From Maritimibacter sp. (GTDB lineage: Bacteria > Pseudomonadota > Alphaproteobacteria > Rhodobacterales > Rhodobacteraceae), in the NCBI GenBank assembly GCA_002695005.1, contig NZNT01000015.1, positions 1-64,000 of the forward strand: DNA of 64,000 bases. The letters are read 5' to 3'. The notes beneath the pieces were generated by a model that worked only from the letters and a program-made list of their open reading frames with translations, was not told the DNA's origin and searched no databases. Both the position numbers and the translations under genes were made by a program. How positions within the stretch are numbered: position 1 is the stretch's first letter; every line of letters begins with the position of its first letter. Positions 6,411 to 41,938 of this stretch are shown one piece after another.

Positions 6411-7877
6411 ATGACCCATATTCTCGCGCTCGATCAGGGCACGACCAGTTCCCGCGCCATCGCGTTCGATGGCGACATGGCCCCCGTGACCAGCGCCCAG
6501 CGGGAGTTCGACCAGCACTTCCCGCGCTCTGGCTGGGTCGAGCACGAACCCGAAGACATCTGGGACACGACCCTCGCCACAGCCCGCGAGGTCGCGCAAG
6601 AGGTCGGCGATATCGCCGCCATCGGGATTACCAACCAACGCGAGACCGTCGTGATCTGGGACCGCGAGACGGGCAAGGCGATCCATAAGGCGATCGTCTG
6701 GCAGGACCGGCGAACGGCGCCACTCTGCGCCACACTGCGCGACGAGGGATTCGAGGATGTAGTACGCACACGCACCGGTTTGCTGCTCGACCCCTATTTC
6801 TCAGCCACCAAGGTCAAATGGCTTCTGGACGAGGTTCAGGGCTCACGCGCGGCGGCCGAGGCTGGAAAACTCGCGTTCGGGACCGTCGACACGTTCCTCA
6901 TCTGGCGGCTGACCGAAGGGCGGGTCCATGCCACGGACGCCACGAACGCGGCGCGCACCATGCTTTACGATATCCACAAAGGGACGTGGGACACGGAGAT
7001 CTGCGACCGGCTTGGCATCCCCATGTCGATGCTGCCCGAGGTGCGCGACAGCGACGGAGATTTCGGGGAGACGACGTTGCTGGGCGGCTCCATCCCGATC
7101 CGGGGTGTGGCAGGGGATCAGCAGGCGGCCACCATCGGACAGGCCTGTTTCACGCCGGGTATGATCAAGTCCACCTATGGAACCGGGTGCTTTGCGCTGT
7201 TGAACACCGGCGCAACCGCCGTCACCTCGAAAAACCGGCTGCTCACCACCATCGCCTACCAGCTTGGCGGCAAGACGACCTACGCGCTCGAGGGCTCGAT
7301 CTTCGTTGCGGGGGCCGTCGTGCAATGGCTGCGCGACGGGCTTGGCATTCTTGGTCAGGCGTCGGACGCGGGACCATTGGCGCGCAAGGCCGATCCCGGT
7401 CAGGACGTGATCCTCGTCCCAGCCTTCACCGGGCTTGGCGCACCCTATTGGGATGCGGAATGCCGGGGCGCGGTCTATGGCCTGACCCGCAATTCCGGAC
7501 CTGCGGAGTTCGCCAAGGCCGCCCTTGAGAGCGTGGGGTTCCAGACCCGTGATCTGCTGGAGGCGATGGAGGCGGACATGGGGCAGCCGATCGAGGGAGT
7601 GCTGCGCGTCGACGGCGGCATGTCTGCTTCGCGCTTCGCGATGCAGTTCCTCGCCGACATCACGGGTGCTCCGGTGGACCGTCCGCCGGTGCTGGAGACG
7701 ACGGCGATGGGCGCCGCCTGGCTTGCGGGGCAGGCCGTCGGGCTTTACCCGGATGCCGAGACTTTCGCCAAGGGATGGTCTGCAGAGATGCGCTTTGATC
7801 CGAAGATGGACCCGGACGACCGCGCGGCACGCTACGGCGCGTGGAAGGACGCGGTCCGGCGCACCCTGTCGTCATGA
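6411..7877 (+). CDS. glpK: Glycerol kinase
   Basis: This 488-residue FGGY-family kinase makes sn-glycerol-3-phosphate from glycerol and ATP. It has the N-terminal ATP-binding signature [10 protein letters not shown], the substrate region [14 protein letters not shown], the motif [10 protein letters not shown] and the C-terminal signature [16 protein letters not shown]. It starts 7 bp after a strong ribosome-binding site (AGGAGGGAGG). It follows glpD and precedes an MFS transporter gene. No glpF or glpR is nearby. Confidence 0.96.
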
Positions 7878-7933
7878 CGCGCGACAGGTGCGGGGTGCCG
7901 TGATAACCACGCGGTGCAGTTGGGGGGCATGAC

Positions 7934-9142
7934 ATGACCGGAGACGAGAGCGCGCTGAAGCCATATCGCTGGGTCGTGGTCGGGGCGTCTGCGCTGATCC
8001 TCGCGCTCGCGATGGGGTCCATCGTCAATGGCATGTCCGCCTATGTCGTCCCGCTCGAGGAGACCTATGGGTGGGAACGCGGGGCGATTTCCCTGATCAA
8101 TGTCTCCGGCATCCTCGGCATGGCGCTGGGCGGTATGCTCATGGGCGCCGTGGCCGACCGGATCGGCACGCGGCCTGTCGTTCTGATCGGTGTCGTGGTC
8201 ATGGGGCTGGCCTACCTCGCCGCGTCCTTTGCCGTGGCTCTGTGGCAGTTCTACGCGCTGATGTTCATCGCAGGCGCGTTCGGGGCCGCAGGGATTTTCG
8301 CCCCGATCATGGCGCTCGTGGGCAAGTGGTTTCCCATCGGGGCTGGCCTCGCGCTCGGGATCGCGTCGGCCGGACAGGCGTTGGGGCAGGGCGGCGTGCC
8401 GTTCGGCTCGGCGCTGCTGATCAAGTCGGTCGGAATATCGGGTGCGCTCGCGATAACTGGCGGGCTGATGCTGGCACTTCTTCTGCCGCTCGCATTGCTC
8501 CTGCGGCCCGTGGCGGCCCTCGCGGCGGGCGCGCGCGTACCGGATGAGAGCGGCTATCCCCCGATCCGGCTCGTCGTGCCCACGATGTGCCTCGCCATCT
8601 TCCTGTGCTGCACCTGCATGTCGGTGCCGCTCATGCACCTCGTGCCCTATATTCAGGACTGCGGGTTCACGGTCGATCAGGCCGGTGGCGTCGTGTTCCT
8701 CATGCTCATGGTCGGCATCCTGGGGCGCGTGGCGTTCGGCAAGCTGGCCGACATCGTGGGTGCCATTCCCGCCTATATGACCGCGACCGCGTGGATGACG
8801 CTTTTGATCTACGGGTTCATGCTGATCAACGACCTGTCGGCCTTCTACCTCTACGCCCCGATCTATGGCTTTGGCTACGCGGGCGTGATGACCGGCGTGC
8901 TGACCACCATCGCGGCGAACACGCCGCCGTCGCGGCGCGGCTTCGCGATGGGTGTCGTGACGATGTTCGGCTGGTTCGGTCATGCGAACGGCGGCTATAT
9001 CGGGGGCGCGCTTTATGACCTCACGGCGGATTATGCGGTGGCCTATGGCCTTGCCGCCCTCGCCGGCGCGCTGAACCTTGTCGTCGTCGGCTGGCTCTAC
9101 TGGCGCATCCGGGGGCAGCGCGCGGCCGCGATACCCGCTTAA
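7934..9142 (+). CDS. MFS transporter, monocarboxylate/oxalate-formate antiporter type
   Basis: This 402-residue membrane protein has about twelve hydrophobic segments and the MFS loop 2-3 signature in GAVADRIGTRPVVLIG (residues 72-87). The opening segment, with an external YVVPLEETYGWERG loop, resembles the oxalate/formate and monocarboxylate branch of the family. It lies between glpK and a Tat-exported molybdenum hydroxylase. A carboxylate or heterocycle substrate is possible, but the sequence does not decide it. Confidence 0.8.
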   Translation: MTGDESALKPYRWVVVGASALILALAMGSIVNGMSAYVVPLEETYGWERGAISLINVSGILGMALGGMLMGAVADRIGTRPVVLIGVVVMGLAYLAASFAVALWQFYALMFIAGAFGAAGIFAPIMALVGKWFPIGAGLALGIASAGQALGQGGVPFGSALLIKSVGISGALAITGGLMLALLLPLALLLRPVAALAAGARVPDESGYPPIRLVVPTMCLAIFLCCTCMSVPLMHLVPYIQDCGFTVDQAGGVVFLMLMVGILGRVAFGKLADIVGAIPAYMTATAWMTLLIYGFMLINDLSAFYLYAPIYGFGYAGVMTGVLTTIAANTPPSRRGFAMGVVTMFGWFGHANGGYIGGALYDLTADYAVAYGLAALAGALNLVVVGWLYWRIRGQRAAAIPA

Positions 9143-39393: not shown

Positions 39394-40188
39394 ATGAGCA
39401 ATCAGGTCTCCGTGATCACCTATAGCCGGAAGCTCGGCAGCCCCACGCGAAAGGCGGTGATGGTCTACTTCGCGGAGCGCGCCAGCGACAACGGTGAGGG
39501 TATATGGGCCTCAAAATCTACGATGGCTGAAGCAATCGAATGCGGCCGTTCAACCGTGATCAGGATCATAAATGAATTTGTTTCCGAGGGCCTTCTGAAA
39601 GTCGTTGGAAGCCGTCCATGCAAGAATGGGTCGACCGTCGAATACGCGATCGATATCGACGCACTAAAGGCTCTCCCGCTTGTTCACGCGACCTCTGAAA
39701 AGCGCGAGACCCGTCCCGCAGTGACACCCGTCCCAGAGCGGGACCCGTCCCAGAGCGGGACGCCACCCGTCCCAGAGCGGGACCCGTACCCGTCCCAGAG
39801 CGGGACCCAAACCACCATAGGAACCACCAATGAACCGTCAGGAGCGCGCGCGATCCTCTGTGAGGTTCTCAGCGAAGAAACCGCCGACAGCTACATCGAC
39901 CACCGGAAGGCCAAGAGGGCGAAACTAACAAACCGCGCGGCCGAGCTGATCGTGAAGAAGCTCAAGGGACACCAAGATCCAAACGGCGTAGTCGAGGAAA
40001 GCATCGCGAACGGCTGGACCGGTGTGTTCCCGGAAAAATCACGCGCTGGCCCTTCTCAGCAATCCTACGGCTACCGCCCATCGGTCGAGCAGGAATGGCA
40101 GGCCGGCGCTCGCATCCCGTCTCAGGAGATCGACGAGATGTTCGGGGAAGTCCTCCCGCCGCCCGGTGACACCGCCCGCCGCCACTGA
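39394..40188 (+). CDS. Replication initiator-like protein with winged helix and internal iterons
   Basis: This 264-residue protein has an N-terminal winged helix (residues 15-75, SKSTMAEAIECGRSTVIRII) and a C-terminal domain (about 160-230). The linker (about residues 107-140) is read from four copies of a 15-bp DNA repeat. It follows the helicase gene, which fits an O-type origin-binding protein that loads DnaB. The order helicase then initiator is the reverse of lambda O-P. Confidence 0.72.
   Translation: MSNQVSVITYSRKLGSPTRKAVMVYFAERASDNGEGIWASKSTMAEAIECGRSTVIRIINEFVSEGLLKVVGSRPCKNGSTVEYAIDIDALKALPLVHATSEKRETRPAVTPVPERDPSQSGTPPVPERDPYPSQSGTQTTIGTTNEPSGARAILCEVLSEETADSYIDHRKAKRAKLTNRAAELIVKKLKGHQDPNGVVEESIANGWTGVFPEKSRAGPSQQSYGYRPSVEQEWQAGARIPSQEIDEMFGEVLPPPGDTARRH
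39730..39806 (+). repeat. Four 15-bp iterons, probable phage origin of replication
   Basis: The imperfect palindrome GTCCCAGAGCGGGAC occurs identically at 39730-39744, 39747-39761, 39769-39783 and 39792-39806. Spacings are 17, 22 and 23 bp, so copies 1 and 3 are read in one frame (VPERD) and copies 2 and 4 in another (SQSGT). Sequence is kept at the DNA level, not the protein level. Lambda ori has the same location, within the initiator gene. Confidence 0.8.
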
Positions 40189-40222: not shown

Positions 40223-41938
40223 ATGATCGGCATGACCTTCTGTTCTGGAATTGGCGCCCCCGAGGTCGCCCTACCCTGGGTCGATTGGCGGTTCGCGTCC
40301 GAGATCGAGCCATTCCCGCGCGCCGTTTTGCAACACCGGCACGGCTACAAGATGCCCGACGATCACAACCAGGGCGAGCCGCTGCTCTGGGGTGATATGA
40401 CCGAGGTCGGGCCGGATCTCCTGCGCCGCCACGGCATCCCGCTGCCGGATCTGATCGTCGCCGGCACCCCTTGCCAGGCCTTTTCCGTCGCTGGGCTGCG
40501 CAAGGGCACGGAAGACCCGCGCGGCAACCTAACCCTCGCATTCGTGGAGATATGCCATGCAATCGTCGATGCTCGACCTGATGGAAAACTCGCCGTCCTC
40601 TGGGAAAACGTGCCCGGCGTCCTCTCGGACAAAGGCAATGCGTTCGGCGCTTTCCTGGGAGGACTTGTCGGCGCACTGGACGCCCTCCCACAACCTACCG
40701 GGGGAAGCTGGCCCGGTGAAGGTATGGTTGAGGGGCCAAGGGCACGGGCAGCTTGGGCCGTTCTCGACGCCCAATGGTTCGGAGTGGCGCAGCGGCGCCG
40801 TCGCGTGTTCGTTGTCGTCGATTTTGGAAACTGCGTCGATCCCGCGGCGGTATTACTTGAGCCAGACCGCCTGCGTGGGGATACTCCGCCGCGCAGAGAA
40901 ACGGGGCAAGGCGTTGCCGGAGGCGCTGCGTGTGGCGCTGATCACGGTGGCGCTGACTGGAGCGAAGATCATCGAGGACGTGACGCAGGACCGGGGTGCC
41001 AGCGGGGTTCGCAAGGGGGCGTCGGCACTGAAAATTCACGATGCGCTGTAGGACTGACAGATATTGCTGGCACGCTTCGGGAAACCGACGGCGGTAGCGA
41101 TGTAGATCACGCGATCTGCGGTCATTTAGTGCCAGAAGTATGCGGCACCCTGTCCGATGGGGCGCACAACGGCGGAGTTTTGAACGGTCAGGACGCCAGC
41201 GAGGACGGCACTGGGCGCGGAACGCCGGTTGTGGCTCATGAGGTCGCTGGAACGATGAAAGCCTGCAAAGACAGCGGCGGCTGGTCCAACAGTGCAGATC
41301 ACGCGGCCGCTGTCTACATGGTTCCCGTGGCGTTCGCTCATCAGGCTGGCGGAAAACAGACGACACTGGGGTTTCAGGACGACGGCACTTGCCAGACCAT
41401 CGGCGCCCATCAGACGCCGGCCATTGCCATCCAAGAGCGCGCGGTGAGCGAAAACCCGGATGTCGGGCCAGACGGCGCTGGGTTTCGTAATGACGACACC
41501 GCCTACACGCTGGAGGCGCGGCAGGTTCCGCAGGCAGTGGCGTTCGCTCAGAACCAGCGCGACGAGGTTCGCACGATGGAAGTCGCTGGCGCTCTGAGCG
41601 CCGAACCGGGGATGAAGCAACAGACGTATCTCGCCCACCCGTGGGCCGTTCGCCGTCTGACGCCGCGCGAATGCGAGAGATTGCAGGGATTCGAGGACGA
41701 CTTCACGCTGATCCCCGGATGGGCCGCTCGCGCCAGCATGAAAGACCTTGAGGAAACTGCGCGATGGATATGGAGCGAGGACAATCAGTTGAACGGAATG
41801 ACGTGGGAGGACGCTCTCGCACTCGCCCGGCATCCTGACGGCCCGCGCTACAAGGCGCTCGGCAACAGCATGGCGGTTCCGGTGATCGCGGATATCGGGG
41901 AGCGGATCAGGGCATCAATGCAGGGCATCGCAACATGA
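40223..41938 (+). CDS. C5-cytosine DNA methyltransferase
   Basis: This 571-residue protein has the C5-methylase motifs: FCSGIGAPEVAL (motif I), Cys84 in GTPCQAFSVAG (IV), ENVPG (VI), QRRRRVFVV (VIII), RRLTPRECERLQGF (IX) and YKALGNSMAVPV (X). The stretch from about 200 to 470 between VIII and IX is long and should hold the target recognition region. A second protein is encoded in another frame inside it (40557-41051). Confidence 0.93.
   Translation: MIGMTFCSGIGAPEVALPWVDWRFASEIEPFPRAVLQHRHGYKMPDDHNQGEPLLWGDMTEVGPDLLRRHGIPLPDLIVAGTPCQAFSVAGLRKGTEDPRGNLTLAFVEICHAIVDARPDGKLAVLWENVPGVLSDKGNAFGAFLGGLVGALDALPQPTGGSWPGEGMVEGPRARAAWAVLDAQWFGVAQRRRRVFVVVDFGNCVDPAAVLLEPDRLRGDTPPRRETGQGVAGGAACGADHGGADWSEDHRGRDAGPGCQRGSQGGVGTENSRCAVGLTDIAGTLRETDGGSDVDHAICGHLVPEVCGTLSDGAHNGGVLNGQDASEDGTGRGTPVVAHEVAGTMKACKDSGGWSNSADHAAAVYMVPVAFAHQAGGKQTTLGFQDDGTCQTIGAHQTPAIAIQERAVSENPDVGPDGAGFRNDDTAYTLEARQVPQAVAFAQNQRDEVRTMEVAGALSAEPGMKQQTYLAHPWAVRRLTPRECERLQGFEDDFTLIPGWAARASMKDLEETARWIWSEDNQLNGMTWEDALALARHPDGPRYKALGNSMAVPVIADIGERIRASMQGIAT
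40557..41051 (+). CDS. Overlapping gene inside the cytosine methylase (+1 frame)
   Basis: This 164-residue frame is open from ATG 40557. From residue about 85 its C-terminal part reads SLSSILETASIPRRYYLS and continues ACVGILRRAEKRGKALP. I recall this pattern from phage proteins encoded with phage Dcm genes. At the same bases the methylase frame encodes motif VIII and a familiar LLEPDRLRGDTPP segment, so both frames look functional. No start signal is clear, and the N-terminal half may be non-coding. Confidence 0.6.
   Translation: MQSSMLDLMENSPSSGKTCPASSRTKAMRSALSWEDLSAHWTPSHNLPGEAGPVKVWLRGQGHGQLGPFSTPNGSEWRSGAVACSLSSILETASIPRRYYLSQTACVGILRRAEKRGKALPEALRVALITVALTGAKIIEDVTQDRGASGVRKGASALKIHDAL

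Follow-up and report, generated by a model that had tools for sequence, protein, structure and literature searches.

A second, seldom annotated protein-coding frame within C5-cytosine methyltransferase genes of phages and plasmids and its probable role as a methyltransferase partner

The 64,000-nucleotide stretch of Maritimibacter sp. DNA analyzed here, termed the window, harbors a C5-cytosine DNA methyltransferase (MTase) gene, and an open reading frame (ORF) that lies entirely within this gene in the +1 frame and spans motif VIII is almost certainly a protein-coding sequence under purifying selection, as judged from the comparison of many related loci. This second small protein is seldom annotated and appears to be kept by selection in very different phages and plasmids. 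As a whole, the findings are probably best explained by a small partner subunit of the MTase, which would be translated from an internal start on the same mRNA. A second conserved gene in the +1 frame of the cytosine methylase had been proposed in a first-pass annotation of the window, and an ORF of 164 codons at exactly 40557-41051, with relatives in phages, bears the proposal out; the arrangement is in fact broader than was claimed there, since it includes an association with C5-MTases, a likeness to an MTase segment and an occurrence on Firmicutes plasmids as well. The features of the locus are as follows.

40223..41938, forward strand: C5-cytosine DNA methyltransferase (MTase), 0 frame, 571 aa (PF00145, E 4.4e-29; phrog_116, E 2.8e-67)
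40546..40549, forward strand: GGAG, possible Shine-Dalgarno (SD) sequence, 7 nt upstream of the +1 ATG (from the sequence)
40557..41051, forward strand: 164-aa ORF (plus stop) overlapping the MTase in its +1 frame (ATG start; selection tests)
40560..40574, forward strand: QSSML, residues 2-6 of the +1 product, where relatives carry the QLxLF clamp-like motif (degenerate in the window)
40790..40804, forward strand: MTase motif VIII, QRRRR, double-coding zone
40806..40955, forward strand: conserved core of the +1 protein (CSLSSILET...ALITVA; alignments)
40823..40942, forward strand: MTase residues 201-240, relaxed 0-frame constraint, pLDDT <50 from residue 219 (pN/pS; MTase model)

The window holds a prophage, in which genes for a DnaB-like helicase, terminase subunits, portal, head and tape-measure proteins are found around the MTase gene, the latter being preceded by a replication O-like gene and followed by a NusG-like gene. 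The 0 frame carries both the family profile and the motifs of the C5-MTases (PF00145). The two peptides previously ascribed to the alternative frame, SLSSILET (residue 85) and GILRRAEKRGKALP (residue 108), which together span nt 40809-40919, are present in the +1 product, and motif VIII of the main frame (40790-40804) lies within the ORF.

In a +1 overlap, the third positions of the MTase codons coincide with the second positions of the inner frame and the MTase first positions with the inner-frame third positions, so that an inner frame under selection is expected to hold the third positions of the MTase fixed and to leave the first ones free. The first loci were picked by a pattern inside the +1 core, which biased the synonymous drop, and the tests were repeated on an unbiased set of 80 IMG/VR loci fetched by the MTase N-terminus alone. 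Of these 80 viral contigs, 77 contain the +1 ORF, whole or partial, two being cut by contig ends and one having lost it (L207); the 77 include a cut locus (L244), one with the core only (L208), one with a frame change (L233) and three with a late start (L221, L234 and L239). A match to the +1 profile at E <1e-3 was obtained in 78 of the 80 loci, among them L207 with a mere 43-codon scrap, and in 83 of 87 when seven annotated phage loci were added, while the two loci of the 80 without a match end just after the N-terminus query match. The selection tests covered 68 of the 80 loci plus the window (69 in all); L180 and L195 were left out because of contig ends, L207, L208, L233 and L244 by hand, and L170-L173, L197 and L246 because the motif pattern missed them.

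Over MTase codons 115-238, the +1 frame was stop-free in 64 of 69 loci compared with 8.6 (maximum 14) after synonymous shuffling, and in 64 of 71 with the hand-excluded L207 and L208 counted as failures, L233 not being scored; the lack of conservation and frequent stops that the first-pass annotation had named as counter-evidence were thus not encountered. The +1 profile scored 89-275 bits in 68 loci (median 223), against a median of 55.6 and a maximum of 110 bits in 1,360 synonymous shuffles, the two ranges touching. That a conserved MTase protein and codon bias alone could mimic the +1 conservation is nevertheless very improbable. Part of the similarity is indeed such a shadow, given that the shuffles still reach their 55.6 bits, from which it follows that plain tblastn E-values are inflated, and five of the 68 loci fall below the highest shuffle; every one of the 68, on the other hand, scores above all 20 shuffles of its own gene. 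The profile had been trained on the first loci, with 53 of its 165 rows being near-copies of test loci, and the result holds after their removal (median 199.3 bits observed versus 49.2 for the shuffles), with 64 of 68 loci above every shuffle and again 68 of 68 above all 20 of their own gene.

Synonymous change, counted as identical amino acids encoded by different codons, falls from about 0.63 to 0.17 along the gene, and its suppression starts at MTase codon 111, which is the start of the +1 ORF. The values amount to 0.53-0.69 for codons 1-110, 0.47 and 0.44 for 111-130, 0.60 for 131-150, 0.36 and 0.30 for 151-170, 0.58 for 171-180, 0.37, 0.30 and 0.31 for 181-210, and 0.17 for 211-240, after which they return to 0.49 and 0.61. 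A drop at about 40780-40960 had been predicted beforehand, and a strong one was observed at 40763-40942. MTase third positions evolve more slowly than first positions only in codons 201-240, and the pN/pS ratios of the two frames are exchanged there, reaching 1.22 in the MTase frame and 0.42 in the +1 frame over codons 201-238, compared with 0.28-0.39 and 1.22-1.58, respectively, in three MTase control regions. Both observations contradict the shadow explanation, which is refuted for the core and only weakened for the first 40 residues.

Overlap-aware ratios were obtained from close pairs (130 pairs, 48 sequences). For the +1 frame, dNN/dNS was 0.34 [0.21-0.49] and dSN/dSS 0.15 [0.08-0.40] in the core, while dSN/dSS was 0.37 [0.13-1.05] in the middle of the ORF and 0.88-1.09 in control regions. 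In the motif VIII zone (MTase codons 186-205), dSN/dSS was 0.13 [0.04-0.22] and dNN/dNS 0.57 [0.18-1.17], the latter interval reaching above 1, and the MTase frame gave a dNS/dSS of 0.12 [0.03-0.21]. Selection on the N-terminal stretch of the +1 product is modest in the main clade (dSN/dSS 0.55 [0.21-0.99]; dNN/dNS 0.97 [0.63-1.50]). According to the SN/SS and NS/SS ratios, both frames are under purifying selection at motif VIII, and the codon-position pattern is reversed directly after it. Both frames are therefore real at motif VIII, and downstream of it selection acts on the +1 frame. The MTase model, with pLDDT <50 at residues 219-329 and 343-460, agrees with the +1 frame being the selected one in this part. 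MTase codons 210-212 read GTA TTA CTT, from which the +1 frame yields Tyr-Tyr-Leu; TTA accounts for 3 of 417 Leu codons in 12 ORFs of the window.

Synonymous change could likewise be reduced by an antisense gene or by any conserved element at the RNA or DNA level, and such an explanation is barely conceivable here, as the constraint follows a period-3 pattern with a free +1 third position, and as the other four non-MTase frames are stopped over MTase codons 112-238 in 69, 57, 46 and 66 of the 69 loci compared with five in the +1 frame. The locus therefore presents a frame open beyond chance and purifying selection on both frames (in the core mainly on the +1 frame), as is required of same-strand overlapping genes. 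Extended dual coding on one strand across a catalytic motif has rarely been established in bacteria and phages, and here it is supported by many sequences. As for the extent of the gene, the ORF is open to 41051 as described before, but conservation stops near nt 40955 and the last 31 residues are not conserved.

The core of the +1 product follows the consensus CSLSxxLExxxIPxRYxLSxxACxGILRRAEKRGKxLPxxLxxAL and consists mainly of two confident helices, helices being predicted at residues 86-92 (with low confidence), 103-116 and 122-145, with block mean pLDDT values of 94-97 at residues 101-130 and 60-79 at residues 81-100. A Foldseek search with the AF2 model (mean pLDDT 69.7) returned no match (best E 1.9), no family was matched by the window protein in Pfam, PHROGs, NCBIfam and PADLOC at E 1, no HNH domain was detected in Pfam at E 1, and an eight-row +1 profile found nothing among PDB sequences at E 10.

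Many ordinary C5-MTases, including E. coli Dcm, carry a segment of the type LxxILDxxVDEKYTLSxKLW in frame after motif VIII. When the core was compared by hhalign with this segment in 17 canonical templates chosen by its motif pattern, a probability of 90.5 and a score of 37.5 were obtained, and none of 150 column permutations reached this score (maximum 17.6); with all 33 templates unfiltered, the probability was 80.1 and the score 31.2 against a maximum of 17.0 in 100 permutations (0/100). Against full-length MTases, the core aligned at the same place with a probability of 70. The similarity covers 39-46 columns with an identity of 17-21%, and the segment is missing from about half of the ordinary MTases examined. 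With the 17-template profile, all 87 +1 products scored above 0, compared with 4 of the 68 MTase 0-frame products. The core thus resembles a segment that many ordinary C5-MTases have in frame and that the 0-frame product lacks, although the similarity could also be due to convergence.

The recurrence in phages that had been suggested was confirmed by tblastn of the 164-aa product (E 1e-5), which matched 127 of 50,697 phage records, the best 60 of the 127 being listed. In the seven records checked first, namely P1 dmt, an uncultured myovirus, Enterobacter phage CobraSix, Pseudomonas phage TC7, Ruminococcus phage NatCom_23091, Curvibacter phage PCA1 and Caulobacter phage DMCA, it lay in every case in the +1 frame of an annotated MTase CDS, and the same was found within the MTase genes of Streptococcus phage Javan105, Mycobacterium phage Lucky2013 and Sinorhizobium phage NV1.1.1. 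The occurrence in P1 places the arrangement in a textbook phage. An MTase N-terminus like that of the window was present in 321 phage records, which means that some related MTases give no tblastn match. A Ruminococcus-type query matched 128 records, 39 of them over at least 80% of the query, including those of gut and Streptococcus phages. In an early set, the core pattern was present in 165 of 169 loci, and all four MTase motif patterns occurred one base back in 148 of these 165, the remainder showing fewer owing to contig ends, looser motifs or broken genes; of the four loci lacking the core pattern, L107, L127 and L132 carry both frames, and no MTase frame was seen in L093.

On plasmids, 530 records were matched, 448 from Escherichia and 38 from Salmonella, and among the best 40 of the 530 the matches are mostly annotated as methyltransferases. 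A Streptococcus-type query matched 66 plasmid records, mostly from Firmicutes, and on Carnobacterium and Enterococcus faecium plasmids the +1 product was again located inside dcm, with a relaxase gene nearby. In host genomes it is rare, being found in 3 of 101 relatives and at least 6 of 398 genomes of the phylum (a lower bound, as 10 candidates were scored per genome), the window's own genome being counted in both. In each of the nine host-genome loci read, the +1 product overlaps an MTase frame, which is truncated in L386, and among all loci whose frames were read no free-standing copy lacking an MTase was seen, L093 being the one in which no MTase frame was seen. Gene prediction tends to accept a single frame for a given stretch, and similar genes may therefore be widespread.

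A distant MTase type of Streptococcus phages, a set found with +1 peptides, shows the same overlap, and its +1 product matches that of the window by profile (probability 97.5), from which it differs in its N-terminus and a shorter core. Among 56 non-redundant loci, a +1 stop occurred within residues 10-60 in 54 and within residues 60-177 in none. Synonymous change was 0.39-0.54 in codons 1-40, 0.28 and 0.19 in 41-60, 0.07-0.32 in 61-190 and 0.43-0.50 in 191-210. In the record of pneumococcal phage MM1 1998 (DQ113772), a homologous +1 ORF, orf14 (7631-8056), lies inside the MTase orf13 (7480-8637) and starts at codon 51 behind AAGGAG; the two are annotated as 'C5 methyltransferase alpha / beta subunit', in this one phage record only, and the pairing is one of annotation only. 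PHROG 16143 ('DNA methyltransferase') matches the +1 frame, rather than the MTase frame, of phage IPP48 (L254, 8035-8436; E 3.3e-58), and its name is misleading for the +1 product. The +1 relative of Caulobacter phage DMCA also matches PHROG 16143 (E 2.4e-7), and the window +1 protein gave no match to it at E 1.

A separate internal start at ATG 40557 is very probable on the basis of these comparisons. An ATG within 3 codons of the +1 start was present in 45 of 69 loci versus 25.7 expected. A good SD sequence, on the other hand, is rare in the window's clade (5 of 69 starts versus 1.3 expected), which speaks against such a start. In the Streptococcus set, the suppression of synonymous change sets in over codons 41-60, where orf14 of MM1 starts, and an SD sequence preceded 45 of 45 non-redundant located starts, compared with 20 of 37 under a 'first ATG of ORF' rule. 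These starts bear on a rival possibility, namely that programmed +1 frameshifting after motif VIII produces an MTase isoform in which motifs I-VIII are followed by the +1 core at the C-terminus, in place of a separate protein. The likeness of the core to the canonical post-motif-VIII segment and the few genes that keep only the core open (L208 and L117) would fit such an isoform, but we regard it as improbable, considering that 64 of 69 loci, versus 12.8 expected, have no +1 stop ahead of the core (MTase codons 115-200), that the constraint begins near the +1 frame's own start, that SD sequence and start are conserved in Streptococcus, and that the N-terminal clamp-like motif of the +1 product would not be made.

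This motif resembles the QL[S/D]LF-like consensus, which we take to be the binding motif for the bacterial sliding clamp. Its strict form, Q[LM][SDTG][LIMV]F, is carried by 32 of the 130 representatives of the main clade, 31 of which have it at residue 2 or 5, compared with a mean of 0.3 and a maximum of 2 in shuffles; it is absent from the other 98, the window having the degenerate QSSML. In the Streptococcus set it was found in 38 of 45 (shuffle mean 0.31), where one branch of the start-locating pattern contains the motif itself, and in 0 of 6 Streptococcus rows under another start rule. It is possible, although somewhat doubtful, that this peptide serves as a tether to the sliding clamp.

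The strongest reason for calling the +1 product an MTase partner is a fusion. In L207, L259 and the shorter L260, a related domain is located in frame at the MTase C-terminus, with a score of 17.1 bits in L207 versus a maximum of 4.8 in 4,858 scored shuffles. The L207 protein ends in ...TQLSLFDPID, which includes the clamp-like QLSLF, and the +1 frame at its motif VIII contains stops. In a tree of the catalytic region, L207 falls inside the +1 clade on a long branch, and it therefore looks like a move from overlap to fusion. On this evidence, a partnership with the MTase appears rather probable for the +1 product.

The main competitor is a separate phage protein unrelated to methylation, such as a regulator or an anti-defence protein, which would live in a tolerant stretch of the MTase. 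All coding evidence fits such a protein, and no annotated family provides a function for the window product. We nonetheless consider it unlikely, since in the loci read, from P1 to Firmicutes plasmids, it lies in C5-MTase genes, a few of them broken (with no MTase frame seen in L093), and in view of the fused domain of L207 and the match to the canonical MTase segment.

In the preferred reading of a partner subunit, the 0 frame would make the catalytic MTase chain, and the internal ATG at 40557 would give rise, on the same mRNA, to a second polypeptide of about 130-165 residues working with the MTase. The latter may bind its own MTase as a 'beta' subunit and supply or stabilize the post-motif-VIII segment in trans, and the QLxLF-like peptide, where present, may anchor the pair on the DNA sliding clamp of the host, by which newly replicated phage DNA would be methylated; one mRNA for both chains would provide a fixed ratio. 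More tentatively, and with less than even confidence, an ancient cross-phylum split MTase could be envisaged, whose two subunits are made from the same bases in two frames and whose +1 chain both supplies the segment and ties the enzyme to the replication clamp, as a bacterial counterpart of DNMT1 on PCNA. Should the +1 product indeed be a partner of the MTase, one subunit would be missing from the annotation of many MTases of phages and plasmids, and assays of the single chain may mislead.

The nearest precedent appears to be M.EcoHK31I, by analogy and with the motifs divided differently. Lee et al. are said to have reported in 1995 that its small chain is encoded inside the large one in another frame. 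Passages of two papers describe M.EcoHK31I as a C5-MTase of two polypeptides (PMC3404938, PMC3439449), with motif IX on the small chain (PMC3404938). The MTase of the window would likewise consist of two chains, but instead of a large chain lacking motif IX and a small chain carrying it, motif IX (RRLTPRECERLQGF) was found in the 0 frame and hence on the large chain, while reading of the +1 product revealed nothing like it. In M.AquI and in the fragment complementation of M.SssI and M.HhaI, one frame is split into two pieces, whereas both frames lie on the same DNA in the window. A ShiLan-type hidden HNH endonuclease, according to passages of PMC11855218, is encoded by an out-of-frame ORF inside a mycobacteriophage methylase gene and represents a mobile insertion, in contrast to the window ORF, which extends over motif VIII itself and gave no match to HNH. 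PMC8637289 refers to MTase genes of MM1 and VO1, described as putative, and its passages contain no overlapping frame. In the parts of the open-licence literature covered by searches not aimed at the clamp, no description was found of the overlap across phyla, of the selection acting on it or of the clamp-like motif. A split C5-MTase (M.EcoHK31I) and one annotated phage record are already known, and these other three points appear to be new.

The pair is not obligatory, as follows from the +1 stops in the N-terminal half of 5 of 69 loci and from the hand-excluded L208 (a stop before the core), L233 (a frame change), L207 (lost) and L244 (cut). Only the core is kept in L117, L165, L167, L266 and L386, most of which are broken or mosaic MTase genes. 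L165 and L167 both lie on a single Bifidobacterium moukalabense contig, and in these two copies a broken MTase frame accompanies a +1 core that is still open. The tree requires three changes of the +1 trait, namely one for a large clade, one for a Streptococcus clade apart from it and one for the loss in L207, and its bootstrap is not settled; either a very old single origin or a trait that arose or moved twice would be compatible with it.

Several minor observations concern the MTase gene and its neighborhood. The profile phrog_864, labelled DNA primase, matches the window MTase at 143 bits and on account of this seemingly contains an MTase part. Window positions 40880-41602 (MTase residues 220-460) form a long spacer with GTL-like units recurring by eye, mostly of pLDDT <50, which is perhaps a modular target-recognition region. 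Within the replication O-like gene, four copies of GTCCCAGAGCGGGAC are located at 39730-39806, and these repeats may be origin iterons as in lambdoid phages.
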